From Phycisphaerales bacterium (lineage in GTDB: Bacteria; Planctomycetota; Phycisphaerae; Phycisphaerales; UBA1924), in contig JANQQG010000132.1 of the NCBI GenBank assembly GCA_028285065.1, forward strand, positions 1 to 45,616: a stretch of DNA of 45,616 nucleotides, given 5' to 3'. The notes under the pieces are model-generated. The model saw only the letters and a list, made by a program, of their open reading frames with translations. It ran no database searches and was not told the DNA's origin. Below, piece after piece: positions 9,241 through 43,769 of the stretch (position 1 is its first letter; each line of letters opens with the position of its first letter). Made by a program: the position numbers and the translations under genes.

Positions 9241-9271
9241 TCACCGCCGGCGCGACGCCGGAGAGAAGACC

Positions 9272-25377: not shown

Positions 25378-27549
25378 ATGACACGAACGACCATGTTCTC
25401 GATGGGCGCTCTCCTCGGAGTCACCGGGCTGTGCGCCCCCGCGCTCGGGCAGGGCGAGATTATCCAGCCGGTCTCGGCGAGTACCTCATATGTCGAGCTC
25501 TTCTCCGGTTCCGGCGTCGTTGCTGGCAACCTCGTCGATCAATCCGGGCTGTCCGCGCCCTACACGAGCGGCGTGACCGACTTCGACACCTTCGTCGCGG
25601 CGGAGGATGGCGCCGGGTCGAGCAACTTCGACCATCTGCTTGCGAACAGCAACGGACAGAACCAGCCGAATGGCGTCGTGGACCCGGGTGGGACCATCAC
25701 GCTCGACCTCGGCTCGGAGATCGCGATCGACGCGCTCGCGTTCTGGAGCGAGACCGGGAACGAAGCGATCACGGCGTTCAACCTGCACGCCGACGATGAC
25801 GACGACTTCACGAACGGTGGCACGACGCTGCTCGGGTCGTACAGCCCGGCGGCGACGGTCGATGGCCAGGCTTTCTCCTTCGACGCCGTTTCGACGCGGT
25901 ACGTCCACATGGAGGTCACCGGTCACGGCGGGGGCAACTGGATCCGAGCAAACGAGATGGCCGTTCGCGCGGCAACCCCCTCGAGCAAGCCGATCCTCCA
26001 GCCGACCGACGTCACCAGCTCTTACAACACCGGATTCTCGCCGTTCGGCCTCGGGAACGTGTTCGACCAGTCGGGGCTGAGCTCCCCCTACGTGAGCGGG
26101 GTCACAGACTTCAACGCCTACATCGCGAGCGTGATCGGTGGCGGCGGGAACAGCGCGCACGTTCTTGCCAACAGCAACGGTCAGAACCAGCCCAACGGCA
26201 TCGTCGATCTCGGCGGCACTTTCACCATCGACCTCGGAGCCCCCACACCGATCGACGCGCTTGGATTCTGGAACCGCGAGGGCAACGAGGCGATCTCCGC
26301 GTTCTCGCTCTACGCCGATGATGACAACGACTTCACCAACGGAACCACGGCCTCGCTCGGCAGCTACGTCCCGCTCCTGATCCGGGCCGGCCAGACCATG
26401 GCGTTCACGCCCACCATTACCCGCTACCTGCACATCGAAGTCACCGGGCACGGCGGCGGGAACTGGATCCGCCTCAACGAGCTCGCGGTTCGCATGGCCG
26501 GCGACGAATGCGAGTGTGCCATCCCCGTCGGCAACGAGACCGTCCTCGGCAACCTCAACGACAACTCTGGCTCGACCGGCGACGACAGTTCGTGCGCGTT
26601 CAACGACAACATCGATGAGTGGTACTGCTACACGGCGCTCAGCGACGGCACGCTGACCGTCACGACCTGCAACCCGGGCTCCGACATCGACACCGTCCTG
26701 AGCGCGTTCGACGCTTGTGGCGGGGTCGAGATCATCTGCAACGACGACACCGTCGGTTCACCGATCGAGTGCGTCCTCGAGGGGCTCAACCGCCTCTCGA
26801 CGATCTCGTTCGCGGTCGTGGAGAAGACGACCTACTACATCCGCGTGTCCCCGTTCAACGACGACCTGGACTTCACCGGCTCCGGCACAGGCGCGTACGA
26901 GATCACGTTCGCCGGCCCGACGGTGTCCACCGGCGACGAGTGCCCCGATGCCGTCGCGATCGGCGAGGAGTGCATCGTCCGCGACCTGAGCCTCAACACC
27001 GGCTCGACCGGCGACGACAGCTCGTGCGCGTTCAACGACACCATCGACGAGTGGCTGGTCTACACCGCCTCGGCCGACGGGCGGATCCGCATCACGACGT
27101 GCAAGCCCGGCACCGAGTTCGACACGACGCTGAGCGTCTTCGATGACTGCCCCGAGAACTCCGGCGCCGAAATCATCTGCAACGACGACACCGTCGGGGC
27201 GCCCGCCGCGTGCGACCTGTCCGGGCTGAACCGCAAGTCCACGGTCGAGATCGACGTGATCAACGGCGACCAGTACTTCATCCGCGTCGGCGTCTTCAAC
27301 GACGACTTCACCCAGCAGGGCGCGTTCGGTACCAACTACGAGATCGGGATCACGCTGCTCTGCCCGTGCGACTGGAACGGCGACGGCAACCTCAACGACC
27401 AGGACTTCTTCGATTGGGCCAACGACTACTTCAGCCAGACCGGCCCGCAGGGCAACTTCGACTTCAACGGCGACGGCAACCAGAACGACCAGGATTGGTT
27501 CGACTTCGTCAACTGCTTCTTCAACCCGCCTCCGCAGTGCCTGAACTGA
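25378..27549 (+). CDS. Secreted GC-type dockerin protein with two discoidin-like domains and two six-Cys repeats
   Basis: 723 residues. Signal peptide 1-24 (cut after PALG). Two tandem copies of a ~170-residue module (about 29-200 and 205-373) share DQSGLS.PY.SGVTDF, LANSNGQNQPNG.VD, TITLDLG, and VTGHGGGNWIR.NE.AVR; the shape resembles discoidin/F5-8C carbohydrate-binding modules. Then two six-Cys PPC-like repeats (375-518 and 519-660) and the dockerin-like end (662-723) with loops DWNGDGNLNDQD and DFNGDGNQNDQD, flanked by CPC, NCFF and a final Cys. It is the largest array member and the only one with the discoidin-like pair. CGGAG eight bases before the ATG supports the start. Its second repeat is nearly the same as that of the gene at 36395. 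Confidence 0.9.
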   Translation: MTRTTMFSMGALLGVTGLCAPALGQGEIIQPVSASTSYVELFSGSGVVAGNLVDQSGLSAPYTSGVTDFDTFVAAEDGAGSSNFDHLLANSNGQNQPNGVVDPGGTITLDLGSEIAIDALAFWSETGNEAITAFNLHADDDDDFTNGGTTLLGSYSPAATVDGQAFSFDAVSTRYVHMEVTGHGGGNWIRANEMAVRAATPSSKPILQPTDVTSSYNTGFSPFGLGNVFDQSGLSSPYVSGVTDFNAYIASVIGGGGNSAHVLANSNGQNQPNGIVDLGGTFTIDLGAPTPIDALGFWNREGNEAISAFSLYADDDNDFTNGTTASLGSYVPLLIRAGQTMAFTPTITRYLHIEVTGHGGGNWIRLNELAVRMAGDECECAIPVGNETVLGNLNDNSGSTGDDSSCAFNDNIDEWYCYTALSDGTLTVTTCNPGSDIDTVLSAFDACGGVEIICNDDTVGSPIECVLEGLNRLSTISFAVVEKTTYYIRVSPFNDDLDFTGSGTGAYEITFAGPTVSTGDECPDAVAIGEECIVRDLSLNTGSTGDDSSCAFNDTIDEWLVYTASADGRIRITTCKPGTEFDTTLSVFDDCPENSGAEIICNDDTVGAPAACDLSGLNRKSTVEIDVINGDQYFIRVGVFNDDFTQQGAFGTNYEIGITLLCPCDWNGDGNLNDQDFFDWANDYFSQTGPQGNFDFNGDGNQNDQDWFDFVNCFFNPPPQCLN

Positions 27550-27578
27550 GCCTGCACACAACCTGACCCCTTCACCAG

Positions 27579-27614
27579 CGGCCCGCGCCACCACGGCGCG
27601 GGCCGTGTCTTTTT
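27579..27614 (+). terminator. Rho-independent terminator after the first array gene
   Basis: Perfect 11-base-pair GC-rich stem (27579-27589 with 27595-27605), five-base loop, followed by TGTCTTTTT. Thirty bases after the stop of the 25378 gene. Confidence 0.88.
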
Positions 27615-27749
27615 CCCGGCCCCTTGTTCTGGATATGCAAGTCTGCTTTGGCACGACAACCGGGCGGACTTCTCACGCATTCGGCGATCTCCATGGTGCG
27701 GGCGTGCGAAGAGTCCCGCTCTGCGAATCGCAACCTGAAGGAGGTTCTG

Positions 27750-28976
27750 ATGCCCGTCTCGTGCCGTGGCCGTGTTCCGTTGAACCGAGTCGCTGGGGCG
27801 CTGTGCGCACTGCTGGTCACGCCAACCGCCCTCGCCGGCCCCGGCGTCGCGACCGGCCCGGGCATCATCTACTCGACGTTCACGCCGGAACAAACCTATG
27901 TGAGCGGCGGGGGGACGATCGTCCGCGGGCCCGACGTCATCGCGGCAGCGGCGGTCCGGGTCGCGGTCCCCTTCACGCCCGCGGCAGACGCAGCCCTCAA
28001 GAACGTGCAGGTCGGCATGGCCAATGACGGTCAGTCGCCCGTGCACGCGACGGAGCTCGCGATCTTCACGAGCACCGGGAGCGGGCCCGGCGTGCTCATC
28101 GAGTCACTGGGCGTCCAGACGAGCTTCCAGGAACTCCCGGCGGGCGCCAGCCCGACCACCTACTCGTCGACGCTCCAGCCCACGCTGCTCGCGGGCACCG
28201 AGTACTTCGTCGTGGCGCGATGGGCTGCGAACGACTCGTCGGCTGTCTGGGCCCCGACCCTCACCGGCGTCACCGGGCGGTGGATTCAGTTCGATGACGA
28301 CCCGTGGTCGTTCAGTCCGTTCCCCACTCCCTCCGTCCAGGTCAACGCGGTGTATGACGGCGACGAGTGCGCCGTGGCCGGACGCCTCCAGAAGGGTGAG
28401 AACCCCGGCTCCCTCGTTGACAACACCGGGAGCACCGGCGACGACTCGTCCTGCGCCTTCAACGACACGATCGACGCGTGGCATCGCTACACGGCGCCGG
28501 ACGACGGCACGCTCACGCTGACGACGTGCCACCCGGGCACCGAGTTCGACACGGTCCTCAGCGTCTTCGACGCGTGCGCGGGCACCCAGCTCGCGTGCAA
28601 CGATGACACGAGCCCGATCGTGCCCGCGTGCGAGCTCGGCGGCCTGCACCGCAAGTCGACGGTCGAGCTCGACCTTGCCTCCGGGCAGAGCGTCTTCGTC
28701 CGCGTCTCGGTCTTCAACGATGACTTCTCGGGGAGCTTCGGGACGGGAGAGGGCTACGTCGTCGTGCTCGATTTCGTGCCCGAGCCGCCCTGCCCCTGCG
28801 ATTGGAACGGCGATGGCGCGCTCAACGACCAGGACTTCTTTGACTGGGTCAACGATTTCTTCGATCCCGACCCCGGCAAGGGCGGCGGACCCGACTTCAA
28901 CGGCGATGGGTCCGTCAACGACCAGGATTGGTTCGACTTCGTCAACTGCTTCTTCGGCAACGTCTTCGGCTGTTGA
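27750..28976 (+). CDS. Secreted GC-type dockerin protein with choice-of-anchor-like N-domain and one six-Cys repeat
   Basis: 408 residues. The start is the ATG at 27750, preceded by a strong AAGGAGG (27738-27744); an earlier in-frame ATG at 27624 has no such site and sits at the preceding terminator. Signal peptide about 1-29 (ending TALA). Residues ~30-200 form a beta-rich domain (VRVAVPFTPAADAALKNVQV, AGTEYFVVARWAAND) that resembles the N-terminal modules NCBI calls choice-of-anchor R; I hold that name loosely. One six-Cys PPC-like repeat (204-345) and the dockerin-like end (348-408) follow; the spacer between the two calcium loops is changed to DPDPGKGGGP, and the protein ends exactly at the closing Cys. 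A terminator follows, so it is probably monocistronic. Confidence 0.88.
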   Translation: MPVSCRGRVPLNRVAGALCALLVTPTALAGPGVATGPGIIYSTFTPEQTYVSGGGTIVRGPDVIAAAAVRVAVPFTPAADAALKNVQVGMANDGQSPVHATELAIFTSTGSGPGVLIESLGVQTSFQELPAGASPTTYSSTLQPTLLAGTEYFVVARWAANDSSAVWAPTLTGVTGRWIQFDDDPWSFSPFPTPSVQVNAVYDGDECAVAGRLQKGENPGSLVDNTGSTGDDSSCAFNDTIDAWHRYTAPDDGTLTLTTCHPGTEFDTVLSVFDACAGTQLACNDDTSPIVPACELGGLHRKSTVELDLASGQSVFVRVSVFNDDFSGSFGTGEGYVVVLDFVPEPPCPCDWNGDGALNDQDFFDWVNDFFDPDPGKGGGPDFNGDGSVNDQDWFDFVNCFFGNVFGC

Positions 28977-29037
28977 TGTTCCGGGCGTCGATCGCCGGCA
29001 TCGCTTGGCTGATGTCCCGCATTGAGGTCTTCGCAGC

Positions 29038-29070
29038 GGCCCGCGCATCTCGGAGCGCGGTCCCCTTTTT
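29038..29070 (+). terminator. Rho-independent terminator
   Basis: Nine-base stem with one mismatch (29038-29046 with 29055-29063) followed by CCTTTTT, 61 bases after the stop of the 27750 gene. Confidence 0.7.
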
Positions 29071-29085
29071 CGCGCGGACCCACCG

Positions 29086-29160
29086 GTTTGGTGGTCGGGA
29101 TCCGACCCGAGATCGGTGTTGACCGGTTCCTTCCGGACCTGGTGATCGGCAAACTGGGCG
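29086..29160 (+). repeat. Duplicated leader, copy 1, with a 6+6 palindrome
   Basis: This 75-base stretch aligns without gaps to 30842-30916; by eye about 57 of 75 bases agree, the best parts being the first 27 and last 8. It contains the palindrome GGTCGG-GAT-CCGACC (29093-29107) and ends in AAACTGGGCG. It lies upstream of the 29218 gene and may carry its promoter or an operator. Confidence 0.6.
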
Positions 29161-29217
29161 TGCGGCGTCGGCCGTGGGGGAGGGGGAGGGGGTGCCGGCA
29201 CCGCAGGAGCCCAAGCA

Positions 29218-30816
29218 ATGCGCGAATCACCCGTCCGCATCTGTGCGATGTGCATGCTCGTCGGTGTGTTCCTCGGCGCCGGCCCGGCCGGCGCGCAGGT
29301 CGGGAACGAATGCCCGGACGCCGCACCAATCGGCCTCGGTGCCACACTCGGCGCCCTGACCAACAACACCGGCTCGACGGGCGTCGATGACGACTGCAGC
29401 CTCGGCAACACCATCGACGAGTGGTACGTCTTCACGGCGCCGATCGATGGCTGGCTGCGCATCGATACGTGCGACGCCGCGACCGACTTCGACACGGTCC
29501 TCTCCGTTTTCGTGGCGTGCCCGGAGGTCGGTGGTGTGGCGATTGAGTGCAACGACGACTCGAGCTCGCCAGGTTGCGGCCTCGGCGCCCAGGGGCTGCT
29601 CAAGTCGAGGCTTGCCTTCGCGGCTGAGGCAGGAACGTCCTACCTCATCCGTGTCTCGGCGTGGGCCAACGACCTCGACGGGAGCGGGGACGGGACCGGC
29701 TCGTTCCTGCTGAGCCTCTCGCTGACGCCGTGGGACGGGGACTCGTGCCAGTTCGGCGCCATCCCGGTCGAGAACGGGACCTACAGCGGGAGCCTCGCCA
29801 ACAACTTTGGCCTCGGGGGCGACACGGACTCCTGCGGGTCCGTGAACACGATCGATGAGTGGTACGTCTACCAGGCCCTCGCAGATGCGACGCTCACCGT
29901 GACCACCTGCAACGCGGGCACGGACTTCGACACCGTTCTCTCGGCGTTCGAAGCCTGCCCGCTGGACGGGGGTGTGCAACTCGTGTGCAACGACGACACG
30001 CCGCCCCCGGCGCCGTCGGACTGCAACATCGTTTTCATGGGGAATGTCTTCACGCGCCGATCGACCATCTCGTTCCCCGTCGAGGAGAAGGCGCGCTACT
30101 TCATCAGGGTCTCGGCGTTCAACGACAACCTGACGGGGCTGGGCGGTCAGGGCAACTTCGTGATCAGCTTCAGTGCGCCGACGATCTCGCTGGGTGACCA
30201 GTGCCCGGGCGCACTGCCGGTCGGGGACGGTTCGTCCGTGGGATCGCTGATCGGCAACTCGGGCGCATCGGGCGACGACAGCTCCTGCGGGGCCGGGGAC
30301 ACCATCGACGAGTGGCTCGCCTACACGCCATCCGCGTCCGGGCGGGCCGCCATCACAACGTGCATGCCCGGCACGAACTTCGACACGACGTTGGCGGTGT
30401 TCGACGCATGTCCCGTGGGCGGGGGCGTCGAGCTCGCCTGCAACGACGATCGCGTCGGCCCGGACCCCGCGTGCGATCTCAGCGGGTTTAACAACAAGTC
30501 CTACGTCGAACTCGACGTGGTCGCTGGCGTCGAGGTCTTTGTACGCGTCTCGGTCGTCGGTGACACGTTCATTGAGAACGGGAGCTTCGGGCACAACTAC
30601 GAGATCGCGATCGAGCTCGTCTGCCCCTGTGACTGGAACGACGATGGGAGTCTGAATGACCAGGACTTCTTCGACTGGGTGAACGACTACTTCACACAGA
30701 CCGGGCCGCAGGGGCAGTTCGACTTCAACGAGGACGGCTTCTCGAACGACCAGGACTGGTTCGACTTCACGAACTGCTACTTCAGCCCGCTCCCGCCCTG
30801 CGCGGGCCTGCCCTGA
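29218..30816 (+). CDS. Secreted GC-type dockerin protein with three six-Cys repeats
   Basis: 532 residues. Signal peptide about 1-26 (CMLVGVFLGAGPAGAQ region). Three tandem six-Cys PPC-like repeats begin near residues 30, 173 and 326; each has IDEWxxY/F, a TTC or DTC cysteine, FDTxL and xCNDD. The third repeat (GDQCPGALPVGDG, then GASGDDSSCG) is the most typical; the first is more divergent (SPGCGLGAQGLLKSRLAF). Dockerin-like end 469-532 with loops DWNDDGSLNDQD and DFNEDGFSNDQD. AGGAG eight bases before the ATG fixes the start. The N-terminus (MRESPVRI) and leader match those of the next gene (MREASTRI), so the two are tandem duplicates at their 5' ends. Confidence 0.9.
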   Translation: MRESPVRICAMCMLVGVFLGAGPAGAQVGNECPDAAPIGLGATLGALTNNTGSTGVDDDCSLGNTIDEWYVFTAPIDGWLRIDTCDAATDFDTVLSVFVACPEVGGVAIECNDDSSSPGCGLGAQGLLKSRLAFAAEAGTSYLIRVSAWANDLDGSGDGTGSFLLSLSLTPWDGDSCQFGAIPVENGTYSGSLANNFGLGGDTDSCGSVNTIDEWYVYQALADATLTVTTCNAGTDFDTVLSAFEACPLDGGVQLVCNDDTPPPAPSDCNIVFMGNVFTRRSTISFPVEEKARYFIRVSAFNDNLTGLGGQGNFVISFSAPTISLGDQCPGALPVGDGSSVGSLIGNSGASGDDSSCGAGDTIDEWLAYTPSASGRAAITTCMPGTNFDTTLAVFDACPVGGGVELACNDDRVGPDPACDLSGFNNKSYVELDVVAGVEVFVRVSVVGDTFIENGSFGHNYEIAIELVCPCDWNDDGSLNDQDFFDWVNDYFTQTGPQGQFDFNEDGFSNDQDWFDFTNCYFSPLPPCAGLP

Positions 30817-30841
30817 CCGCTTGAGCCGGACCGGACCGTCA

Positions 30842-30916: not shown

Positions 30917-30962
30917 GATGGCGCCGGCCTCGTGGGGCGGCCTCGCCTCAGGAGACCAAGTC

Positions 30963-32543
30963 ATGCGCGAAGCATCCACCCGCATCAGCGCGCTGTGCGC
31001 GTTCGTGGCCGTGTCGTTCGTTGTTGCACCTGCCGTCGCGCAGGACGGCGACGAGTGCACCGACCCGATCCCCGTCGGTGATTCGTTGTTCGTCACCGAC
31101 ATCTCGGCCAACACCGGCGCAACCGGGAACGACTCGACCGCCTGCGGCGGGTTCGACTCGATCGACCAGTGGTTCAGGTATGCAGCGCCGGCGGACGGGG
31201 TGCTCAACATCAACACCTGCAACCCCGGCTCTGAGTTCGACACGGTGCTGAGTCTCTACAACGCCTGCGGGGATCCCGATTTCGCGTGCAACGACGACTC
31301 GGTTGGCGCGTTCCCGTCCTGCGAGCTTGGTGGGTTGAACCGGCTGTCGAGCCTGACCATTCCGGTCTCCGATGGCCAGGTGCTTCTCGTCCGCCTGAGC
31401 GCGTTCCAGGATCAGATCGGCACGGGCCTCGCCGAGATCTCCTTCTCGGGGCCCGATGACCCGGCCGGCGAGGACTGCGAGGATGCGATCGAGGTCGAGG
31501 AGGGCACGTTCACCGGCAACCTCGCAGACAACACCACGATTCCCCCCGTCGTCGGCCCCGACTACAGCAGCTGCGGCGGCATCATCGGCGTCGCCGACAC
31601 GTACGACGAATGGTGGGCCTACACCACACGCGCCCGCGGAACCCATTCCGTCAGCACCTGCATGCCAGGCACGCTGTTTGACACCGTGCTGAGCGTCTGG
31701 GACGGCTGCCCCGACGAGGGCGGCGTCGAGATCGCATGCAACGACGATGCGAGCGGTCCCGGTGACTGCTCACTCGGTGGCCTCAACCGCAAGTCCTACC
31801 TGACGTTCTTCGGCGAGGAGAAGCACACGTACTACATCCGCGTCTCGGTCTACAACGACGACTTCAACTGTTCCGTCTGCACAGGGACGGAGTACGAGAT
31901 CCGGATCGCCGGCCCGAGCGCCTCGAGCGCCGACGAATGCCCGATCGGGACAAACGTCGCCGAGGGGACCTACCTGCGCAGCCTCGACCTGAACACCGGG
32001 TCGACCGGCGACGACAGCACCTGTGCCTTCAACGACACCATCGACGAGTGGTTCGACTACACGGCCACGTACGACGGGACCGCGCGCATCACCACCTGCA
32101 ACCCGGCGACGGAGTTCGATACGGTCCTGAGTGTGTTCGCCTCGTGCGGCGGCGCTCAGATCGCCTGCAACGACGACACGCCGGGCGCGCTACCAGCGTG
32201 CAGCCTGGGCCCACTCAACCGCAAGTCGACCCTCGAGATCCCGGTCGTGGCCGGCACGTCGTACCAGGTGCGCGTGAGCGTCTTCAACGACGACTTCTTC
32301 GGAACCGGCGGGTCCGGCCACAACTACGAGCTGACCATCCGCCTGCTCTGTCCGTGCGACTGGAACGACGATGGGAACCTCAACGACCAGGACTTCTTCG
32401 ATTGGGCCAACGACTACTTCACGCAGACCGGCCCGCAGGGCGGCTTCGACTTCAATGGCGACGGCAACGAGAACGACCAGGACTGGTTCGACTTCATCAA
32501 CTGCTACTTCACGCCGCCTCCTGTGTGCGGAGGTGGCCAGTAG
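30963..32543 (+). CDS. Secreted GC-type dockerin protein with three six-Cys repeats
   Basis: 526 residues. Start set at the ATG at 30963, eight bases after AGGAG (30950-30954); upstream in-frame codons lie in the leader and would spoil the signal peptide. Signal peptide 1-26 (APAVA). Six-Cys PPC-like repeats start near 29, 169 and 322. Repeat 2 is a variant: YSSCGGIIGVADTYDEWWAY replaces the usual NDTIDEW segment, and an added CSVC lies just before TGTEYEI. Dockerin-like end 463-526 with DWNDDGNLNDQD and DFNGDGNENDQD. The same order of repeat types occurs in the 32709 gene, its closest paralogue in the array. Ligand and anchor are unknown. Confidence 0.9.
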   Translation: MREASTRISALCAFVAVSFVVAPAVAQDGDECTDPIPVGDSLFVTDISANTGATGNDSTACGGFDSIDQWFRYAAPADGVLNINTCNPGSEFDTVLSLYNACGDPDFACNDDSVGAFPSCELGGLNRLSSLTIPVSDGQVLLVRLSAFQDQIGTGLAEISFSGPDDPAGEDCEDAIEVEEGTFTGNLADNTTIPPVVGPDYSSCGGIIGVADTYDEWWAYTTRARGTHSVSTCMPGTLFDTVLSVWDGCPDEGGVEIACNDDASGPGDCSLGGLNRKSYLTFFGEEKHTYYIRVSVYNDDFNCSVCTGTEYEIRIAGPSASSADECPIGTNVAEGTYLRSLDLNTGSTGDDSTCAFNDTIDEWFDYTATYDGTARITTCNPATEFDTVLSVFASCGGAQIACNDDTPGALPACSLGPLNRKSTLEIPVVAGTSYQVRVSVFNDDFFGTGGSGHNYELTIRLLCPCDWNDDGNLNDQDFFDWANDYFTQTGPQGGFDFNGDGNENDQDWFDFINCYFTPPPVCGGGQ

Positions 32544-32708: not shown

Positions 32709-34262
32709 ATGGTCCCTTGTTCTCGAGTTCGCACGTCCCTCGTCGCCCTCGCGTTCGCCCTGAGCGCGCTCCCGGCTCTCTCGCAGACGGGGGATGAGTG
32801 CTCCAGCCCGATCGTGGTCGGCACGGGCACCTTCGTGGCTGACCTCTCGCTCAACACAGGTTCGACCGGCGATGACTCGAGCATGTGTGCTTCCGACGAC
32901 ACGATCGACCGGTGGTACCTGTACATCGCGCCCAGCGCCGGCACGCTGACCGTGAGCACCTGCAACCCGGGGACTGAGTTCGACACGGTGCTCAGCGCCT
33001 ATTCGACCTGCGGCGGCCCGGACATCGCGTGCAACGACGACTCGGCCGTCGTGCTCCAGGCCTGCTCGCTCAACGGGCTCAACCGCAAGTCGATCATGAC
33101 GGTCCCGGTCAGTGCGGGCCAGAGTGTCCTCGTGCGACTGAGTGCGTTCCGAGACCTCATCGGCAGCGGGCAAGCGCAGATCACCTTCGCGGGTCCGCCG
33201 GAGCCGCCCGGCTACGACTGCCAGGGGCCGATCGAGGTCGGCGACGGGACGTTCATCGGCGACCTGGGCGACAACGTCGGGATCGGGCCGGATGACAGCT
33301 CGTGCGGTGGCATCGTGGGCGTCGCGGACACATACGACGAGTGGTACGCCTACACGGCGCGCGCCGACGGGACAGCTTCGGTCAGCACGTGCATGCCCGG
33401 CACGCAGTTCGATACCGTCATCAGCGTCTGGGACGCATGCCCGCTCGCCGGTGGCGTCGAGCTCGCCTGCAACGATGACGCCTCGGGGCCCGGCAACTGC
33501 GACCTCGGGGGGCTCAATCGGAAGTCGTACGTGACCTTCCCGATCCGTGAGAAGCGCACCTATTACGTCCGCGTCTCGGTCTATGACGATGATTTCAGCT
33601 GCCCCGTCTGCACGGGAACACAGTACGAGATCCGCTTCGCCGGCCCCTCGGTCTCCAGCGCCGACGAGTGCAACATCGGACTGAACGTCGGCGAGGGCAC
33701 GTACCTCCGTAGCCTCGATCTCAACACCGGCGCGACCGGCGACGACAGCTCGTGCGCCACGAACGACACCATCGACGAGTGGTTCGACTACACGGCCACC
33801 GCCGACGGGCTCGCGCGCATCACTACATGCAACCCCGGGACAGAGTTCGATACCGTCCTCTCCATCTTCGATGGCTGCGCGGGGGCGGAGATCGCCTGCA
33901 ACGACGACACACCCGGTGCGCCGGCCGAGTGCAGCCTCAGCGGGCTGAACCGCAAGTCCACGATCGAGCTCTCCGTCACCGACGGCACCAGCTACCAGAT
34001 CCGCGTCAGCGTCTTCGGCGACAACTTCACCACGGCACTCGGTATGAACTACGAGCTGTCTATCACGCTGCTGTGCCCGTGCGATTGGAGCGACGACGGG
34101 AGCCTGAATGATCAGGACTTCTTCGACTGGGTGAACGACTACTTCACGCAGACGGGGCCGCAGGGCCAGTTCGACTACAACCAGGACGGGAACGAGAACG
34201 ACCAGGACTGGTTCGATTTCGTCAACTGCTACTTCACGCCGCCGGCAGGGTGCCTGCCCTGA
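32709..34262 (+). CDS. Secreted GC-type dockerin protein with three six-Cys repeats
   Basis: 517 residues. ATG at 32709 is nine bases after GGAGG (32695-32699); the codon before it is GTG and could also start. Signal peptide 1-25 (ALSALPALSQ). Six-Cys PPC-like repeats start near 28, 168 and 319, the second with the VADTYDEWYAY variant and an added CPVC before TGTQYEI, exactly as in the 30963 gene. Dockerin-like end 456-517; its first calcium loop is DWSDDGSLNDQD, with Ser instead of Asn at loop position 3, the second DYNQDGNENDQD. Only 64 bases separate it from the phosphatase gene, with no terminator seen, so read-through is possible. Confidence 0.9.
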   Translation: MVPCSRVRTSLVALAFALSALPALSQTGDECSSPIVVGTGTFVADLSLNTGSTGDDSSMCASDDTIDRWYLYIAPSAGTLTVSTCNPGTEFDTVLSAYSTCGGPDIACNDDSAVVLQACSLNGLNRKSIMTVPVSAGQSVLVRLSAFRDLIGSGQAQITFAGPPEPPGYDCQGPIEVGDGTFIGDLGDNVGIGPDDSSCGGIVGVADTYDEWYAYTARADGTASVSTCMPGTQFDTVISVWDACPLAGGVELACNDDASGPGNCDLGGLNRKSYVTFPIREKRTYYVRVSVYDDDFSCPVCTGTQYEIRFAGPSVSSADECNIGLNVGEGTYLRSLDLNTGATGDDSSCATNDTIDEWFDYTATADGLARITTCNPGTEFDTVLSIFDGCAGAEIACNDDTPGAPAECSLSGLNRKSTIELSVTDGTSYQIRVSVFGDNFTTALGMNYELSITLLCPCDWSDDGSLNDQDFFDWVNDYFTQTGPQGQFDYNQDGNENDQDWFDFVNCYFTPPAGCLP

Positions 34263-36394: not shown

Positions 36395-37642
36395 ATGCCC
36401 CGACTCCGCCTGCTGTCGTGCGCCGCCTACGCGCTTGGTTTGCTCGCCCTGACGAGCGCAGGCGACGGGCTCTGTGTCCACGCGGGCGCGCAGGTCTTCC
36501 CCACCCTCGCGGCCGCGCAGGTCACGGTCAGTGCACCCCTGCCCGGGCCCAACGACGAGTGCTCGGGCGCAACGCTGGTCGGCGACGGAACTGTCTTCGG
36601 CAGCCTCGCAGACAACACCGGCTCGAACGGCGATGAGACCACCTGCGCGAACGACGACAACGACACCATCGACGAGTGGTACTGCTACACCGCCGTCGGC
36701 GACGGAACGCTGACCGTCACCACCTGCAACCCCGGCTCGGACTACGACACCGTCCTGAGCGCCTTCGACGGCTGTCCGGAGAACGGGGGCGTGGAGATCG
36801 CCTGCAACGACGACACGGGCGGTGCGCCCGCTGAGTGCGGACTGCCGCGCCCTGGCGGGGGCACCATCATCCGCCTCTCGACGATCTCCTTCCAGGTCGC
36901 GGAGAATCAGACTTATTACATCCGCGTCTCGGCATTCGACGACGATCTCACGGAGTTCGGCGGCACGGGCAACTTCGAGATGACCCTCACGGGACCGACA
37001 ACAACCGGCGGCGACGAGTGCGCCGATGCGGTCACGATCCGCGAGGAGTGCCTCACCCGCGACCTGGGCGACAATACCGGCTCGAACGGCGATGAGACCT
37101 CCTGCGCGAACGATGACACCATCGACGAGTGGCTGGTCTACACCGCGTCGGCCGACGGCCGGATCCGGATCACGACATGCAAGCCCGGCACCGAGTTCGA
37201 CACGACCATGAATGTCTGGGACGACTGCCCCGAGAACGCCGGTTCCGAGATCGTGTGCAACGACGACACTCGGCCGGGCGGGCTGCCCGAATGCGACCTG
37301 TCCGGGCTGAACCGCAAGTCCACTGTTGAAGTCGACGTCACCGCGGGGGCGAGCTACTTCATCCGCATCGGTGTCTTCGCCGATGACTTCACGATGCAGG
37401 GCGGCTTCGGGACCAACTACGAGATCGGGGTTGAGTTCCTCTGTCCGTGCGACTGGAACGGTGACGGGAACCTGAACGACCAGGACTTCTTCGATTGGGC
37501 CAACGACTACTTCAGCCAGACCGGCCCGCAGGGCGGCTTCGACTTCAACGGCGACGGCAACGAGAACGACCAGGACTGGTTCGACTTCACCAACTGCTAC
37601 TTCGCCAACCCGGGGCTGCCCGGCTGCGTCGACGAGCGGTAG
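36395..37642 (+). CDS. Secreted GC-type dockerin protein with two six-Cys repeats
   Basis: 415 residues. The leader has one hydrophobic stretch (LLSCAAYALGLLALTSAG) followed by a ~25-residue Ala/Val/Pro-rich linker (to residue 50), so the cleavage site is unclear. Two six-Cys PPC-like repeats (from about 53 and 206) use the variant GSNGDETTC/GSNGDETSC. The second is almost the same as the second repeat of the 25378 gene (EWLVYTASADGRIRITTCKP), also at DNA level. Dockerin-like end 350-415 with DWNGDGNLNDQD and DFNGDGNENDQD, NCYF, then a short tail after the last Cys (VDER). GAGGGA five bases before the ATG supports the start. A terminator follows. Confidence 0.9.
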   Translation: MPRLRLLSCAAYALGLLALTSAGDGLCVHAGAQVFPTLAAAQVTVSAPLPGPNDECSGATLVGDGTVFGSLADNTGSNGDETTCANDDNDTIDEWYCYTAVGDGTLTVTTCNPGSDYDTVLSAFDGCPENGGVEIACNDDTGGAPAECGLPRPGGGTIIRLSTISFQVAENQTYYIRVSAFDDDLTEFGGTGNFEMTLTGPTTTGGDECADAVTIREECLTRDLGDNTGSNGDETSCANDDTIDEWLVYTASADGRIRITTCKPGTEFDTTMNVWDDCPENAGSEIVCNDDTRPGGLPECDLSGLNRKSTVEVDVTAGASYFIRIGVFADDFTMQGGFGTNYEIGVEFLCPCDWNGDGNLNDQDFFDWANDYFSQTGPQGGFDFNGDGNENDQDWFDFTNCYFANPGLPGCVDER

Positions 37643-37677
37643 AACCCCGCTCGCATCGGGACCCTGCGATCAGATCC

Positions 37678-37712
37678 GCGGCTCGCGCATTCGATGGCGC
37701 GGGCCGCTTTTT
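37678..37712 (+). terminator. Rho-independent terminator
   Basis: Eleven-base stem with one G-T pair (37678-37688 with 37697-37707), eight-base loop, then five T. It follows the 36395 gene by 35 bases. Confidence 0.85.
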
Positions 37713-37868: not shown

Positions 37869-38978
37869 ATGATCCGCACGATGCTCTCTGCCGCGCTGTT
37901 GACCGGTCTGGTCGCCAGCGCCGCGCCGTGTTCGGCCCAGGAGGCCGCCAACAACGACTTCCCGGCCGCCTGGCACTTCTACGGGAACAACCCGGACCGC
38001 TGGGCCCAGATCGAGCCCAAGCTCAAGGCGCTCGTCGGCAAGGACGCGCCAGCACTCGAGATCGGTGACTGGCACGGAGACGGCGGCAAGTCCATCGAGG
38101 ACATGAAGGGTGACATCATCCTCATCGACTTCTGGGCCACGTGGTGCGGCCCGTGCAAGGCCGCCGTCCCCGCCATCAACGAGATCAAGGACCACTACGC
38201 CGGCTCCGGCGTGAAGGTCATTGGTGTCTGCGGCACGCGCGGCGCCGAGACCATGACCAAGGTCGCCGACGACCACCACATGGCGTACCCCACCGCCGCC
38301 GACCAGGAGGGCAAGACCGCCAAGGCCTACGGCGTGCAGTGGTGGCCCTACTTCATGCTCGTCGACACCAAGGGCAAGGTCCGTGCCGCGGGTATCTCCA
38401 CCGGCCACCTCGAGGACGCCGTCCGCAAGATGCTCGAACTCGAAGGCAAGACCCTCCCGCCGAAGATCGGCGACACCGGGGGCGACGTGACCGCGATCGT
38501 CCCGGCCGATTGGCTCGAGGGCAAGGGTGAGCTGCGCGAGACGCTGACCGCGATGCACGGCAAGGCCGCGCCCAAGCTCGAAGTCAGCGAGTGGATCAAC
38601 GCCGACGCCATGGCACTCGCTGACCTCGAGGGCAAGATCGTCGTCCTCGACTTCTGGGCCACTTGGTGCGGCCCGTGCATCGCCTCGATCCCCAAGAACA
38701 ACAAGAAGTACGACGAGTACAAGGACCGCGGCGTGGTCTTCATCGGTGTCTGCCACCCGCGCGGCGTCGAGAAGATGCCCGCCATGGTTGACGACAAGGG
38801 CATCCGCTACCCCGTCTGCGCCGACCCGGAGGGCAAGACCATCAAGACCTACAACATCAAGAGCTTCCCGGACTACACCGTGATCGGGCGTGACGGCAAG
38901 GTCGTGGCCGCCGACGTCCGCAACGACAAGGTCTGGGAACTCGTCGAGCGCCTGCTCGACCAGGACAGCCAGGGCTAG
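37869..38978 (+). CDS. Exported protein with two TlpA-like thioredoxin domains
   Basis: 369 residues. Signal peptide about 1-23 (SAAPCSAQ). Two complete thioredoxin/TlpA-like domains in tandem, each with FWATWCGPC: active-site Cys93/Cys96 and Cys267/Cys270. Each has a TlpA-type strand before it (IILIDFW, IVVLDFW) and the GKVRAAG or GKVVAAD strand after it; each also has an extra Cys soon after the active site (VCGTRG, VCHPRG). The tandem arrangement is unusual; most TlpA/ResA proteins have one domain. AAAGGAG lies eight bases before the ATG. It sits in the middle of a cluster of Cys-rich secreted proteins, so a role in making or reducing their disulfides is a reasonable inference; electron transfer for haem attachment (ResA-like) is the alternative. 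Confidence 0.93.
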   Translation: MIRTMLSAALLTGLVASAAPCSAQEAANNDFPAAWHFYGNNPDRWAQIEPKLKALVGKDAPALEIGDWHGDGGKSIEDMKGDIILIDFWATWCGPCKAAVPAINEIKDHYAGSGVKVIGVCGTRGAETMTKVADDHHMAYPTAADQEGKTAKAYGVQWWPYFMLVDTKGKVRAAGISTGHLEDAVRKMLELEGKTLPPKIGDTGGDVTAIVPADWLEGKGELRETLTAMHGKAAPKLEVSEWINADAMALADLEGKIVVLDFWATWCGPCIASIPKNNKKYDEYKDRGVVFIGVCHPRGVEKMPAMVDDKGIRYPVCADPEGKTIKTYNIKSFPDYTVIGRDGKVVAADVRNDKVWELVERLLDQDSQG

Positions 38979-39035
38979 AGCGGCTCCAACCCGACTCCGT
39001 CCCCCCCGTTTGGCCCCCAAGGCATCGCTTCGCTC

Positions 39036-39075
39036 AGGACCCCGGCGCTCGCCGCCGGGGTCCTGTTTGCTTTCC
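39036..39075 (+). terminator. Rho-independent terminator after the double-thioredoxin gene
   Basis: Perfect 12-base-pair stem (39036-39047 with 39053-39064), five-base loop, then GTTTGCTTTCC. 58 bases after the stop. Confidence 0.82.
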
Positions 39076-39111
39076 GGACCGTCGGCAACCCGCCCGAGAT
39101 CGCGGGATCCC

Positions 39112-39140
39112 TTGGATCACGACGCCCCAGCCGCCATACT
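39112..39140 (+). promoter_or_regulatory. Promoter-like site, TTGGAT-17-CATACT
   Basis: TTGGAT at 39112-39117 and CATACT at 39135-39140 with a 17-base spacer, about 60 bases before the ATG at 39202. CATACTG recurs before the next three array genes. Confidence 0.5.
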
Positions 39141-39201
39141 GGTCATGCGGGGTCGCGCGGTGCGTTGCCGAGCGCGCCTGCGCCGAAGGGAGCTGCCTCA
39201 C

Positions 39202-40335
39202 ATGCGTCCGATCTGGTGGCAGCTTCTGGCCAAGCGACTCGGGGCGTGGGCTGTCGTGGGAGCGGTGGGGGGCGCATGCGCACCCGCCCTCGGCGGGGAC
39301 GTCTGCTCGACGGCCACACCCGTTGGCGTTGGCACGCTCACCGCAGTTCTCTCGGACAACTTCGCCTCCGGCGTGGTCGACTCCTGCGGCTTCGGCAACA
39401 CCGTCGACGAGTGGTACACCTTCATCCCCGTGACCGACGGGGAACTCCGCGTAAGCACCTGTCACCCGGGCACCCAGTTCGACACGGTCCTCTCAGTCTT
39501 TGACGCCTGCCCCGCCGATGGCGGCGTGGAGATCGCGTGCAACGACGATGCGCTCACCGCGCCGCTGTCATGCGAGCTCGGCGGGCTCAACCGGTTCTCG
39601 AGCGTCGGCGTCGGCGTCTCCGCAGGCGTTCCGTACTTCATCCGGGTCTCGGTCTACGCCGACAACTTCGGCTGCGATGTGTGCACTGGGACCTCCTATG
39701 AGATCTCGTTCGATCTGATCATCGGGCCCGGCAACGACGAGTGCGCCGGCGCCCAGGGTGTGGCGACGGGGGCCACCCCCGGCAGCCTGCTCGACAACAC
39801 GGGCCTGACCGACGACGATGACTCCTGCGCCATCAACAACTCCATCGACGAGTGGTTCTCCTACACCCCTGGATCGAACGGTCCGGCCATGGTGACGACT
39901 TGTTCCCCCGGCACGACGTTCGACACCGTGCTGAGCGTCTTCGACGGATGCTCGGGGGCCGAGATCGGCTGCAACGACGATGCGACGGGCATCGTCCCGC
40001 CCGAGTGCGCGCTTCCAAGCGGGGCCGTGCGCAAGTCCGTTGTCGAGTTCATGGCCCAGCGCAACGCGACGTACTACATCCGTGTCTCGGCGTTCAACAA
40101 CGCGGTGGGCGGGGGCGAGTTCGAGTTGATCGTCGACGGTCCGGAGGTGTTCTGCGACTGCGATTGGAACTTCGACGGGTTCCTCAACAACACCGACTTC
40201 TTCGACTTCGTCAACGACTACTTCGATGGCGCCGGTCCGATGGGGCAGGCGGACTACAACGCGGACGGGTTCCAGAACGCCCAGGACTTCTTCGACTACA
40301 TCAACTGTTTCTTCAACCCGCCGGCAGGCTGCTGA
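39202..40335 (+). CDS. Secreted GC-type dockerin protein with two six-Cys repeats
   Basis: 377 residues. Start set at the ATG at 39202, ten bases after AAGGGA, because it lies downstream of the promoter-like site and leaves a normal signal peptide (about 1-31, ending APALG); an in-frame ATG at 39145 would put a basic Arg-rich stretch in front. Two six-Cys PPC-like repeats (from about 33 and 178); the first has the added CDVC before TGTSYEI. The second repeat has a Pro/Gly-rich linker (CALPSGAVRKSVVEF). The dockerin-like end (318-377) is the most divergent in the array: CDC instead of CPC, loops DWNFDGFLNNTD and DYNADGFQNAQD, spacer DGAGPMG. It ends exactly at the last Cys. Confidence 0.9.
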   Translation: MRPIWWQLLAKRLGAWAVVGAVGGACAPALGGDVCSTATPVGVGTLTAVLSDNFASGVVDSCGFGNTVDEWYTFIPVTDGELRVSTCHPGTQFDTVLSVFDACPADGGVEIACNDDALTAPLSCELGGLNRFSSVGVGVSAGVPYFIRVSVYADNFGCDVCTGTSYEISFDLIIGPGNDECAGAQGVATGATPGSLLDNTGLTDDDDSCAINNSIDEWFSYTPGSNGPAMVTTCSPGTTFDTVLSVFDGCSGAEIGCNDDATGIVPPECALPSGAVRKSVVEFMAQRNATYYIRVSAFNNAVGGGEFELIVDGPEVFCDCDWNFDGFLNNTDFFDFVNDYFDGAGPMGQADYNADGFQNAQDFFDYINCFFNPPAGC

Positions 40336-40366
40336 CCCATCCATCCCCCAGTCCAGTTGGTCTCCG

Positions 40367-40386
40367 TCCCCAGCACACGCTGGGGA
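40367..40386 (+). terminator. Hairpin after the 39202 gene
   Basis: Perfect 8-base-pair stem (40367-40374 with 40379-40386) and ACAC loop, without a T run. It ends eight bases before the CATACT box of the next gene, so it may end transcription or act in the next promoter region. Confidence 0.45.
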
Positions 40387-40393
40387 TGCTTGG

Positions 40394-40442
40394 CATACTG
40401 ATGCCGGCAGCCGGAGGGACGGTGGGGTGGGGGGTAGGGGGG
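40394..40442 (+). promoter_or_regulatory. CATACT box and G-run leader before the 40464 gene
   Basis: CATACT at 40394-40399 has the sequence shared with neighbouring genes, but no good -35 hexamer at the usual distance; a hairpin occupies that place. Runs of 3, 4, 6 and 6 G at 40416-40442 would lie in the transcribed leader just before the ribosome site GCGGAGG and could form an RNA G-quadruplex. Confidence 0.4.
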
Positions 40443-40463
40443 TGGTGAGCGGAGGCGCCGGGC

Positions 40464-41156
40464 ATGCGCAGGTGTGCGGGTTCCGTAGCTGGTGCGTTCC
40501 TGCTGGCGATCGCATCGCCTGTCCTTGGCCAAGACGAGTGCGCTCAGGCCACGCCAGTGGGCAACGGTACGTTCATCGCCGACCTGGGCGACAACACCGG
40601 CCCGACAGGCGACGACTCGTTCTGCGCCGACGCCGACACGATCGATGAGTGGTACTCGTTCACACCGAGCCAGAGCGGGTTCCTCATCGTCTCCACCTGC
40701 AACCCGGGTACTCAGTTCGATACGTCACTGATCGCGTACTTCGACTGCGCCGGTGACCACGCCGTCTGCAACGACGACGCCATTGGTGCGCCCGCCGAGT
40801 GCGCACTCGGGCCGGCGGATCTCAACCGCAAGTCGACGCTGGACTTCTTCGTCCTCGAGGGGCTGACGTACTACATCCGTGTCTCCGTGGTCAACGACGA
40901 CTTCGCCGCACAGGGCGGATCCGGAACGCAGTACGAGATCACGTTCGACGGCCCGCCACCGATCATCCCGGCGTGCCCCTGTGACTGGAACGGGGACACG
41001 TTCCTGAACAACACGGACTTCTTCGATTGGGTCAACGACTTCTTCAGCCAGTCCGGGCCGCAGGGTCAGTCCGACTTCAATGAGGACGGCTTCGAGAACA
41101 ACCAGGACTGGTTCGACTTCATCAACTGCTTCTTCACGCCGCCAGGGGCTTGCTAG
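40464..41156 (+). CDS. Small secreted GC-type dockerin protein with one six-Cys repeat
   Basis: 230 residues, the minimal array architecture. Signal peptide 1-22 (ASPVLG), one six-Cys PPC-like repeat (24-170) opening directly with DECAQATPVGNG, then the dockerin-like end (171-230). The first calcium loop is DWNGDTFLNNTD: Thr replaces the conserved Gly at loop position 6; the second is DFNEDGFENNQD. GCGGAGG lies eight bases before the ATG. The next gene (41273) is the nearest paralogue: same architecture, with ANTEIVCNDD/DHAVCNDD and GPADLNRKST/GPTNLNRKST variants found only in these two. It probably marks a recent duplication. Confidence 0.9.
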   Translation: MRRCAGSVAGAFLLAIASPVLGQDECAQATPVGNGTFIADLGDNTGPTGDDSFCADADTIDEWYSFTPSQSGFLIVSTCNPGTQFDTSLIAYFDCAGDHAVCNDDAIGAPAECALGPADLNRKSTLDFFVLEGLTYYIRVSVVNDDFAAQGGSGTQYEITFDGPPPIIPACPCDWNGDTFLNNTDFFDWVNDFFSQSGPQGQSDFNEDGFENNQDWFDFINCFFTPPGAC

Positions 41157-41198
41157 GGCCGATCAGACGGGGCTCACCGTCAATCGCCGGGCTGACCC

Positions 41199-41227
41199 TT
41201 CACTTGGAACCCGCGCCGTGGCATACT
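41199..41227 (+). promoter_or_regulatory. Promoter-like site, TTCACT-17-CATACT
   Basis: TTCACT at 41199-41204 and CATACT at 41222-41227, 17-base spacer, about 45 bases before the ATG at 41273. Second of the four CATACTG sites with a full spacer. Confidence 0.45.
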
Positions 41228-41272
41228 GGGTGATGCGTCGTGGGGGTCGATTCCAACTCGGAGGTGTCCAAG

Positions 41273-41968
41273 ATGTTCAAGCTCGCGATTGCCGCAACGG
41301 CGACTGGTGCGCTCTTTGCCAGCCCGGCCCTCGCCCAGGATGAGTGCGTTTCGGCCATCCCCGTCGGCAACGAGACGCTGCTCGGGGATCTCGTCGACAA
41401 CCTTGGTCTCTCGGGCGACGACAGTTCCTGCGCCTTCAACGACCTCACCGACGAGTGGTACAGCTACACAGCCGGTGGCGACGGGATGCTCCGTGTGACG
41501 ACCTGCAACCCGGGCACGATCTTCGATACGACGCTCAGCGCGTTCTTCGATTGCGCCAACACCGAGATCGTCTGCAACGACGACACGGTCGGCGCTCCGA
41601 CAGAGTGCCAGCTCGGACCCACCAACCTCAACCGCAAGTCGACGATCGAGTTCGCGGTCACCAACGGCACGACCTACTTCGTCCGCGTCGCCCCCTGGAA
41701 TGACAGCTTCTCGACTCAGGGTGGTTCCGGAACGGTCTTCGAGATCACCTTCGACGGACCCCCGATCGCGCCCTCGTGCGCCTGCGATTGGAACAACGAC
41801 GGCTTCCTGAACAACTCTGACTTCTTCGACTGGGTCAACGACTTCTTCAGCCAGTCCGGCCCGCAGGGCCAGTTCGACTTCAACGAGGACGGCTTCCAGA
41901 ACGAGCAGGACTGGTTCGACTTCGTCAACTGCTTCTTCACGCCGCCCGCCGGTTGCCCCATCGTCTAG
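41273..41968 (+). CDS. Small secreted GC-type dockerin protein with one six-Cys repeat
   Basis: 231 residues, paralogue of the 40464 product. Start at the ATG at 41273, seven bases after GGAGGT (41260-41265); an in-frame GTG at 41240 would add 11 residues and has no such site. Signal peptide 1-21 (ASPALA), one six-Cys PPC-like repeat (23-168) in which the usual NDTIDEW reads NDLTDEW, then the dockerin-like end (169-231) with CAC instead of CPC and loops DWNNDGFLNNSD and DFNEDGFQNEQD. Three residues follow the last Cys. A hairpin follows at 41991. Confidence 0.9.
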   Translation: MFKLAIAATATGALFASPALAQDECVSAIPVGNETLLGDLVDNLGLSGDDSSCAFNDLTDEWYSYTAGGDGMLRVTTCNPGTIFDTTLSAFFDCANTEIVCNDDTVGAPTECQLGPTNLNRKSTIEFAVTNGTTYFVRVAPWNDSFSTQGGSGTVFEITFDGPPIAPSCACDWNNDGFLNNSDFFDWVNDFFSQSGPQGQFDFNEDGFQNEQDWFDFVNCFFTPPAGCPIV

Positions 41969-41990
41969 CAGTGTTTGGGGGTCTCCCGTT

Positions 41991-42030
41991 GCCCTCGCGC
42001 CCTCCACCGGGCAGGGGTGGGCGTGAGGGC
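41991..42030 (+). terminator. Hairpin after the 41273 gene
   Basis: Twelve-base stem with one G-T pair (41991-42002 with 42019-42030) and a 16-base loop that itself contains short complementary runs. No T run follows, so it is a terminator candidate only. Confidence 0.45.
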
Positions 42031-42145
42031 GATCGCGCAACCACACCGAGTCCTTCGACTGGGTCAGTGATCCCCCCGGCGCACCTTTCTCATGTCGGGC
42101 GTCTCGCCCTGAGGCGTCCGCAGAGGCCCTTTGTCGCTCCGTGCC

Positions 42146-42174
42146 TTTCCAGATCGGCTCCTCCCGTGCATACT
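42146..42174 (+). promoter_or_regulatory. Promoter-like site, TTTCCA-17-CATACT
   Basis: TTTCCA at 42146-42151 and CATACT at 42169-42174, 17-base spacer, about 60 bases before the GTG at 42234. The extended CATACTGGG matches the site before 41273. Confidence 0.45.
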
Positions 42175-42233
42175 GGGTCCGGGTGTTGCGAAGAAAGCAA
42201 CGCCATCGCTCATCAGCCGGTCGGAGGTGCGGC

Positions 42234-43769
42234 GTGACGCGATCCGCGTTTGGACTGATCGGTTTGTTCTCGGTCGGTATCGGTGCGTCCGTCTGCGCCG
42301 CGCAAGGCACGTGCGAGACGGCCATCACCGTCGGCAACGCCGAGACAGCTGGCACTCTTGCCTTCAGCATCGCCGATCCCGACGACGTGACGTCCTGCGG
42401 GGCGGATGACCTGCAGCGCCATTGGTACCGCTACGTCGCGGGCGCCGACGGGCAACTGATCCTCACGACATGCCATCCATTCACGCGGTTCGATTCCGTC
42501 ATCGCCGTGTTCGATGGCTGCGGGGGCGCCGAGATCGCCTGCAACGATGATGATCCTGCACCGATCTGCCTGACTGGGCAGCAGGAAGGCTCCTCGAGCA
42601 TGATGATCCCGGTCGTCGAGGGCCGGTCGTACTCGATCCGTGTGTCGAGGGTCGCCGGCAGTGACGGCGACAGCTACGTGCTCACGACGAGCGGCCCCCC
42701 GGAACCCTTGGGGCATACATGCCTGCGGGCGATCCCCGTCTCCGACGAGACGCTGATCGACGACTTCGCCGACGTACCCAGGAGCCCACGGGTCGTCTCG
42801 TGCCTGACGCCGCCGCATTCGACCGATATCGCCAAGTGGTACCTCTACCAGGCGCGCGCCACCGGTTCCCTGACGATCAGTACATGCCACGCGCAGACGC
42901 AGGTCGGAACCGTGCTCGAGGTGTACGAGTCGTGCGCGCCGGGCGCCTTCAGCGTCGCGTGCGCCGCCGAGCCGTCCGAGGGCTCGCCAGCATGCCCTGT
43001 GCCAGGAGGCGATGCGACCACCCTGAGCGTCGACGTGACCCTGGGCGGCTCGTACCTCGTCCGTGTGTCGAACGCGATCCGCGGCGAGCGCGGGACATAC
43101 GAGATCAGTTTCGACGGCCCCGAGGCGAGCGGAGATGAATGCCAGGAGGCACTGGTCGCGACGGACGGCACCTTCATTGGCGATCTCGTCGACAACACCG
43201 GCTCGACCGGCGACGACTCCGACGGGTGCGCCGACCTGCGGGCCGGAGGTGACACCATCGACGAGTGGTATACCTACACCGCACGAGCCGACGGACAACT
43301 CACCGTCTCGACGTGCAGCACCGATACGCAGTTCAACACCGTCCTCAGCGCCAAGCGACTGCTCGCCGGCCTCCGCTCCTGCGGGACGGGTCTTTCGGCG
43401 AACTGCAACGACGACGCCGGCGTCGGCTGTAGCCCGCAAGCGTCGGGCGGGTCGTCGCTCACCATCGACGTCGAGCAGGGCTGGGAGATCGCTGTCCGGG
43501 TCTCGGTCTACGACGACGACTTCACGTCGCTCGGGGGCCACGGGACCAAGTACGCCATCACGTTCGATGGCCCCACCCCGTGCGCGTGCGACTGGAACCA
43601 GGACTTCGCGCTCAACGACCAGGACTTCTTCGACTGGGTCAACGACTTCTTCAACCAGGCTGGGCCGCGCGGCACGTCCGACCTCAATCAGGACGGCATC
43701 CAGAACGACCAGGACTGGTTCGATTTCATCAACTGCTTCTTCGCCCCACCCGCCACCTGCCCGAACTAG
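42234..43769 (+). CDS. Secreted GC-type dockerin protein with three divergent six-Cys repeats
   Basis: 511 residues. The start is GTG at 42234, six bases after GGAGG (42223-42227), giving MTRSAFGLIGLFSVGIGASV as signal peptide; an in-frame ATG at 42141 lies upstream of the CATACT box and is rejected. Three six-Cys PPC-like repeats (from about 25, 160 and 300). Repeats 1 and 2 are the most divergent of the array: repeat 1 has QRHWYRY for IDEWYxY, and repeat 2 has AKWYLYQ and loses the CNDD motif (ACAAEPSEG). Repeat 3 is typical but has an insert (KRLLAGLRSCGTGLSANCNDD). Dockerin-like end 450-511; the first loop, DWNQDFALNDQD, has Phe at the conserved Gly position. It is the last array gene. 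Confidence 0.88.
   Translation: MTRSAFGLIGLFSVGIGASVCAAQGTCETAITVGNAETAGTLAFSIADPDDVTSCGADDLQRHWYRYVAGADGQLILTTCHPFTRFDSVIAVFDGCGGAEIACNDDDPAPICLTGQQEGSSSMMIPVVEGRSYSIRVSRVAGSDGDSYVLTTSGPPEPLGHTCLRAIPVSDETLIDDFADVPRSPRVVSCLTPPHSTDIAKWYLYQARATGSLTISTCHAQTQVGTVLEVYESCAPGAFSVACAAEPSEGSPACPVPGGDATTLSVDVTLGGSYLVRVSNAIRGERGTYEISFDGPEASGDECQEALVATDGTFIGDLVDNTGSTGDDSDGCADLRAGGDTIDEWYTYTARADGQLTVSTCSTDTQFNTVLSAKRLLAGLRSCGTGLSANCNDDAGVGCSPQASGGSSLTIDVEQGWEIAVRVSVYDDDFTSLGGHGTKYAITFDGPTPCACDWNQDFALNDQDFFDWVNDFFNQAGPRGTSDLNQDGIQNDQDWFDFINCFFAPPATCPN

Follow-up and report, generated by a model that had tools for sequence, protein, structure and literature searches.

The window analysed here, that is, the whole stretch of 45,616 nucleotides of contig JANQQG010000132.1 (assembly GCA_028285065.1) from a Phycisphaerales bacterium of the GTDB lineage UBA1924, carries between positions 25378 and 43769 of the + strand an array of ten genes whose products share one architecture: a signal peptide, one to three copies of a six-cysteine repeat, and a C-terminal paired calcium-loop domain, referred to below as the tag. 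The ten open reading frames (ORFs) are all intact and lie at the same coordinates as in a previous sequence-only reading of this DNA, which had also claimed their dense clustering; this clustering is seen, though two genes outside the repeat family sit inside the run. The signal peptides that it had noticed support an exported nature of the proteins, and in most genes the mature protein would start with a repeat right behind the likely signal peptide cleavage region. Most of the array proteins consist of repeats and tag, nothing more, and no catalytic domain was recognised in any of the ten in profile library searches. The genome is a fragmented assembly of 262 contigs that is 87% complete.

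Several of the listed ORFs open 5' of the probable start, the likely starts being 27750, 30963, 32709, 39202, 41273 and 42234. Gene 1 (25378-27549, +) encodes a signal peptide, two F5/8 type C (discoidin) domains, two repeats (26500-26922 and 26932-27357) and the tag (27361-27543), while gene 2 (27750-28976, +; ORF open from 27624) encodes a signal peptide, a choice-of-anchor R-like domain, one repeat (28359-28784) and the tag (28791-28973). The discoidin-like pair and the choice-of-anchor-like module had both been proposed from the translations alone, and the profiles recover them as PF00754 (46.7 bits, cut-off 28.2) and choice-of-anchor R (29.8 bits, cut-off 30), respectively. Signal peptide, three repeats and tag make up the products of gene 3 (29218-30816, +; repeats 29302-29730, 29737-30183 and 30193-30621; tag 30622-30804), of gene 4 (30963-32543, +; ORF open from 30918; repeats 31047-31457, 31467-31922 and 31932-32345; tag 32349-32528) and of its sister, gene 5 (32709-34262, +; ORF open from 32658; repeats 32790-33203, 33213-33650 and 33663-34070; tag 34074-34256). 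Two repeats follow the N-terminal signal sequence in gene 6, a sister of gene 1 (36395-37642, +; repeats 36551-37000 and 37010-37438; tag 37442-37627), and the signal peptide in gene 7 (39202-40335, +; ORF open from 38890; repeats 39295-39720 and 39733-40146; tag 40153-40335). The sister genes 8 (40464-41156, +; repeat 40530-40958; tag 40974-41156) and 9 (41273-41968, +; ORF open from 41240; repeat 41336-41764; tag 41777-41959) have a signal peptide, a single repeat and the tag, and the product of gene 9 was used for the structure models. Gene 10 (42234-43769, +; ORF open from 42141; a GTG start is likely) again has a signal peptide, three repeats (42309-42704, 42711-43127, which is degenerate, and 43131-43577) and the tag (43581-43763).

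The repeats thus number 2, 1, 3, 3, 3, 2, 2, 1, 1 and 3 in genes 1 to 10, which is the distribution of 21 repeats that had been claimed. A profile built from them recovers 21 of 21 in the genome, with E-values from 2.6e-38 to 5.4e-63, and its best non-array match elsewhere in the genome reaches 91 bits. The claim of six conserved cysteines held for five of them (C4, C32, C57, C73 and C80, invariant in all 21 repeats), and the sixth, C91, is absent only from the last repeat. The six positions are typical of the wider repeat family, in which each is filled in 120-139 of 147 repeats; they are a property of that family and not of the array. Covariation was uninformative about the disulfide pairing within the repeats because the cysteines are too conserved.

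The sequence family of the repeats is PF23759 (GBD_T9SS_assoc, galactose-binding-like), a known family that has no clear function: seven of the ten array proteins pass its cut-off of 27 bits (28.6-58.2 bits), gene 1 (26.6 bits) and gene 9 (19.2 bits) stay below it, and gene 8 has no match. The six cysteines are kept throughout PF23759, from whose other members the array repeats differ in being a longer subtype (DNTGSTGDDSSC and LNRKS motifs) with few close relatives (loci L142, L144, L145 and L147) and in being fused to a GC-type dockerin and not to the tail of a type IX secretion system (T9SS). The AlphaFold2 model of one repeat, built from 50 sequences, has a mean predicted local distance difference test score (pLDDT) of 91.3 and a predicted template modelling score of 0.88, and replaced a mediocre ten-sequence model (pLDDT 77). 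Its closest solved structures are the collagen-binding domain of ColG and a pre-peptidase C-terminal (PPC) domain of a collagenase (E 7.6e-5 to 9e-5, template modelling score 0.67-0.69 by target length), CBM35/CBM6-type sandwiches ranking lower; solved relatives sought by sequence gave no convincing match. The likeness to the ColG s3b domain lies in the predicted beta-sandwich fold (template modelling score 0.67), and the array repeat differs from it in having only 14% identity, a sub-threshold sequence match and six conserved cysteines. The resemblance to PPC domains proposed earlier is therefore supported by the model as one of fold and not of sequence family, since PF04151 stays at or below 18.8 bits in the array proteins against a gathering cut-off of 25.9.

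The dockerin-like domain that had been described at the C-terminus is present in 10 of 10 array proteins as a paired EF-hand-like calcium-loop domain with 29 invariant columns. The profile of the ten array tags has 73 hits in the genome, on 70 unique ORFs, about 60 of which lie outside the array, and 66 of the 70 stop at most seven residues after the tag. The cargo that carries it is diverse and includes subtilases, reprolysin-type metallopeptidases, a multicopper oxidase, a MauG-like enzyme, glucose/sorbosone dehydrogenase, endonuclease I and several choice-of-anchor proteins. By its sequence, the array tag is best described as a divergent member of the NCBIfam family NF041540, "GC-type dockerin", under the curated cut-off: with 14-17.7 bits as proteins and 15-21.5 in the genome search, the array tags miss the cut-off of 29, which other tags of the same genome pass with 29.6-47.1 bits (contigs C63, C104 and C141). 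They have what characterises this family, namely a duplicated calcium loop at the extreme C-terminus, conserved first and last cysteines and many copies per genome, and they differ in a W/F-rich NDQDWFDFVNCFF core and in an extra C3/C52 pair, found in about half of the genome's tags. That such a domain anchors its protein to the cell is suggested only by the name of the model (dockerin_GC, "GC-type dockerin domain-anchored protein"), and a literature search for GC-type dockerins found nothing under that name. On the tag tree, the ten array tags are dispersed (nine state changes for ten tags) and form no clade. It follows that the array lacks a tag class of its own, and presumably also a partner. 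An array-specific partner was disfavoured for the same reason, the array tags being intermingled with the genome's other tags. On a 5.2 kb contig labelled Longimicrobiales (L143), which probably belongs to a near relative and was mis-binned, one tag shares 74% identity with those of the array.

The cysteines of the genome's tags go in pairs. Of 71 tags, 37 have both Cys3 and Cys52 and 33 have neither, with one discordant case (70 of 71 concordant), and the corresponding figures for Cys1 and the C-terminal Cys are 57, 7 and 6. On the tag tree, about 15 switches of the Cys3/Cys52 pair are counted, with no pairing in the opposite direction. This co-occurrence predicts two disulfides, C1 with the terminal Cys and C3 with C52, that would tie together the ends of the domain.

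The tags also differ from one genome to the next. Among 155 tags of eight family genomes, those of the relatives being drawn from the top of the profile hit lists and those of the own genome from its own profile, the mean identity is 0.51-0.75 within genomes versus 0.24-0.60 between them. The nearest neighbour of a tag belongs to the same genome in 150 of the 155 cases (mean 35 and maximum 50 with shuffled labels), and the six genomes that were sampled with one common model still show distinct tags. A single reader per genome that co-evolves with the tags would give such dialects.

Other members of the repeat family end differently. In two Bacteroidota loci (L151 and L163), the same repeat family is followed by a C-terminal T9SS type A sorting domain that is over its cut-off; this domain (TIGR04183/PF18962) occupies the position of the array tag, to which it is unrelated in sequence, and PF18962 has no match in the own genome. 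Three Planctomycetota loci with the same repeat family show an IPTVSQWGLLIL-type hydrophobic tail, CTERM-like and confirmed by no model; the repeat proteins of L150, L152 and L154 have IPTVSQWGLLILTLTLLVLAK-type tails, CTERM-like and confirmed by no NCBIfam model. The repeats therefore seem to travel with whatever C-terminal signal the lineage uses. As for the secretion context of the tag, on contig C150 (L174:3454-8092) tagged genes are immediately preceded, on the same strand, by genes for a gspD-like secretin and a gspE-like ATPase, a single case which suggests that the tag may be linked to a type II route; five secretin genes of the genome are over the cut-off. A PEP-CTERM-like protein was observed among tagged genes of the same contig (L173:10864-11550), and the genome has one exosortase (contig C20), so that two C-terminal sorting routes appear to coexist in it.

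We consider it probable that the array arose by lineage-specific tandem expansion of genes for exported, disulfide-rich binding proteins, the C-terminal tag serving for sorting or anchoring and being read by a putative genome-specific receptor. The signal peptide would take each protein out of the cytoplasm, its one to three repeats would form PPC-like beta-sandwich domains akin to PF23759, each probably held by three disulfides, and the divergent GC-type dockerin makes up its end. The tag would then be the general sorting or anchoring signal of the genome, and not the plug for a cellulosome-style cohesin, and a putative genome-specific envelope receptor or secretion machine would read it. For the beta-sandwiches, the most likely roles are binding of a surface ligand (glycan, matrix or metal) and service as spacers, and adhesion or surface display by the array proteins is plausible. 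On a wider scale, we suggest more tentatively, and with slightly less than even confidence, that the family shares a C-terminal sorting system in which a disulfide-clasped EF-hand-like tag, in a dialect private to each genome, marks dozens of exported proteins per genome for a co-evolving non-cohesin receptor, the array being the amplified surface repertoire of one genome.

Several points weigh against this interpretation. No receptor was identified, the sole candidate association being the gspD-gspE pair on contig C150, and ligand binding by the repeats is putative. The size of the dialect effect may be inflated by the tag sampling, because the tags of the relatives and those of the own genome were gathered differently, and recent spread of the domain or gene conversion within a genome would also give the dialect pattern. 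Only five of the cysteine switches fall on well-supported branches, with a median p of 0.0625, and the cohesin profile may miss a divergent cohesin in this fragmented, 87% complete assembly.

In another reading, the C-terminal domain would be only a calcium- and disulfide-stabilised cap, receptorless and spread by domain shuffling, on proteins that are simply released; recent shuffling alone would produce the likeness of tags within a genome, and no receptor was found. We regard this alternative as unlikely, given that a near-absolute C-terminal position over about 70 ORFs with diverse cargo and the other C-terminal sorting signals that the same repeat family uses in other phyla fit a signal better, and that joint drift of the whole set is not required of a cap.

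It is somewhat less likely still that the tags are true dockerins for cohesin scaffoldins and that the array supplies the binding subunits of a cellulosome-like or "planctosome"-like scaffold. The planctosome was put forward as a cohesin/dockerin system for a lineage of freshwater planctomycetes in which cohesins are indeed encoded (PMC6461901), and the best PDB matches of the tag profile are solved cellulosomal dockerins, although these matches are weak (E 0.04-0.9). The tags share with type I cellulosomal dockerins the EF-hand-like loop-helix duplication and a weak profile similarity, and they differ from them in their strictly C-terminal position, in their conserved, paired clasp cysteines and in having no detected cohesin partner. 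The earlier observation that no cohesin is seen in the window extends to the whole genome, window included, which has no match to PF00963 at E <= 1, with the proviso that a divergent cohesin could escape the profile in such an assembly. Matches to NF041540 occur in 37 of 37 family genomes, often at least about 81 of them, while a cohesin match occurs in 3 of 37, which leaves 34 of 37 tag-bearing genomes with none. A cohesin-based scaffold was disfavoured after the search of the own genome and 60 relatives, and the scaffold with a dedicated partner, one of the possibilities that the sequence-only reading had suggested, finds no support here, because the tag is shared with about 60 other ORFs, the array tags are mixed among them and no cohesin was detected.

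The repeats could also be leftovers of degraded secreted enzymes, accessory domains of the PPC type and not dedicated binding proteins. This reading would agree with their predicted PPC-like fold, PPC-type domains being typical of secreted peptidases, but is improbable for proteins that mostly consist of repeats plus tag, have no recognised catalytic domain and are encoded by intact ORFs with a ratio of nonsynonymous to synonymous substitution rates (dN/dS) of about 0.3-0.4 between sisters.

Dockerin-like domains are commonly taken as a sign of cellulosome-like scaffolds. In this bacterial family they act like a C-terminal sorting tag, often in dozens per genome and mostly with no detectable cohesin. 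If the sorting interpretation is true, one receptor or translocator is expected per genome, the question of the partner becomes open to phylogenetic profiling and pull-down, and caution is called for before such proteins are labelled cellulosomal. The array also illustrates that tandem duplication can enlarge the surface-type repertoire of such a lineage.

Genes 1, 6, 4, 5 and 3 have last repeats that cluster together in the repeat tree, as do the penultimate ones, and the first repeat of gene 4 is sister to that of gene 5, several of these forks being only moderately supported. This grouping of last with last and penultimate with penultimate points to growth of the array through whole-gene duplication, and the dN/dS of the sister genes argues that they are maintained and not decaying. 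The nearest relatives of the array subtype are contigs of metagenome-assembled genomes labelled Alphaproteobacteria (L142), Thermoanaerobaculia (L144 and L145) and Phycisphaerae (L147), some of which labels may be binning errors. No repeat above 90 bits was found in 60 relatives, and conservation of the array in relatives was rejected on that ground; by this measure it is confined to its own lineage within the set of genomes compared. A same-family relative (G029) has, on contig C42 (L179:1-20000 and L180:1-2000), its own run of adjacent genes on the + strand, several of which combine one to four repeats with a C-terminal tag of a different dialect (SVQDIFDFL), which indicates that such expansions recur.

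With respect to regulation, strong intrinsic-terminator-like hairpins follow gene 1 (27578-27606, +; 12 pairs, 11 GC, T run), gene 6 (37678-37707, +; 11 pairs, 10 GC, T run) and the thioredoxin gene described below (39035-39065, +; 13 pairs, 11 GC). A single operon was disfavoured and is unlikely because of these strong hairpins between genes. The promoter-like (-10-like) motif CATACTG occurs four times in the window, before gene 7 (39135-39141, +) and before genes 8 to 10 (40394-40400, 41222-41228 and 42169-42175), each copy 45-64 bases ahead of the start of one of the last four array genes; at least four copies arose in 5 of 100 shuffles, position being left out of account. These four genes may share a promoter type. 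As a genome-wide mark of tagged genes the motif was rejected, since about 246 kb of other own-genome stretches hold only two copies, both coding, and none ahead of other tagged genes. The case for the coordinated function suggested earlier is weak, given hairpins after several genes and a promoter-like motif common only to the last four.

The first of the two interrupting genes (34327-36198, +) encodes an exported protein with a LamG-like domain and a purple-acid-phosphatase-like metallophosphoesterase domain, and the second (37869-38978, +) an exported protein with two TlpA-like thioredoxin domains (two CGPC motifs); neither has the tag. A disulfide-related role is tempting for this double thioredoxin amid six-cysteine proteins, but in the run of G029 no counterpart was noticed. 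The genes beside the array, named here from reading their translations only, appear to form an ordinary housekeeping neighbourhood, with a gene set of the Alternative complex III / cytochrome oxidase type and an SCO1-like protein at 1-12573, ResB/CcsA-like cytochrome c biogenesis genes at 16209-20719, and ffh on the - strand at 23545-25155.

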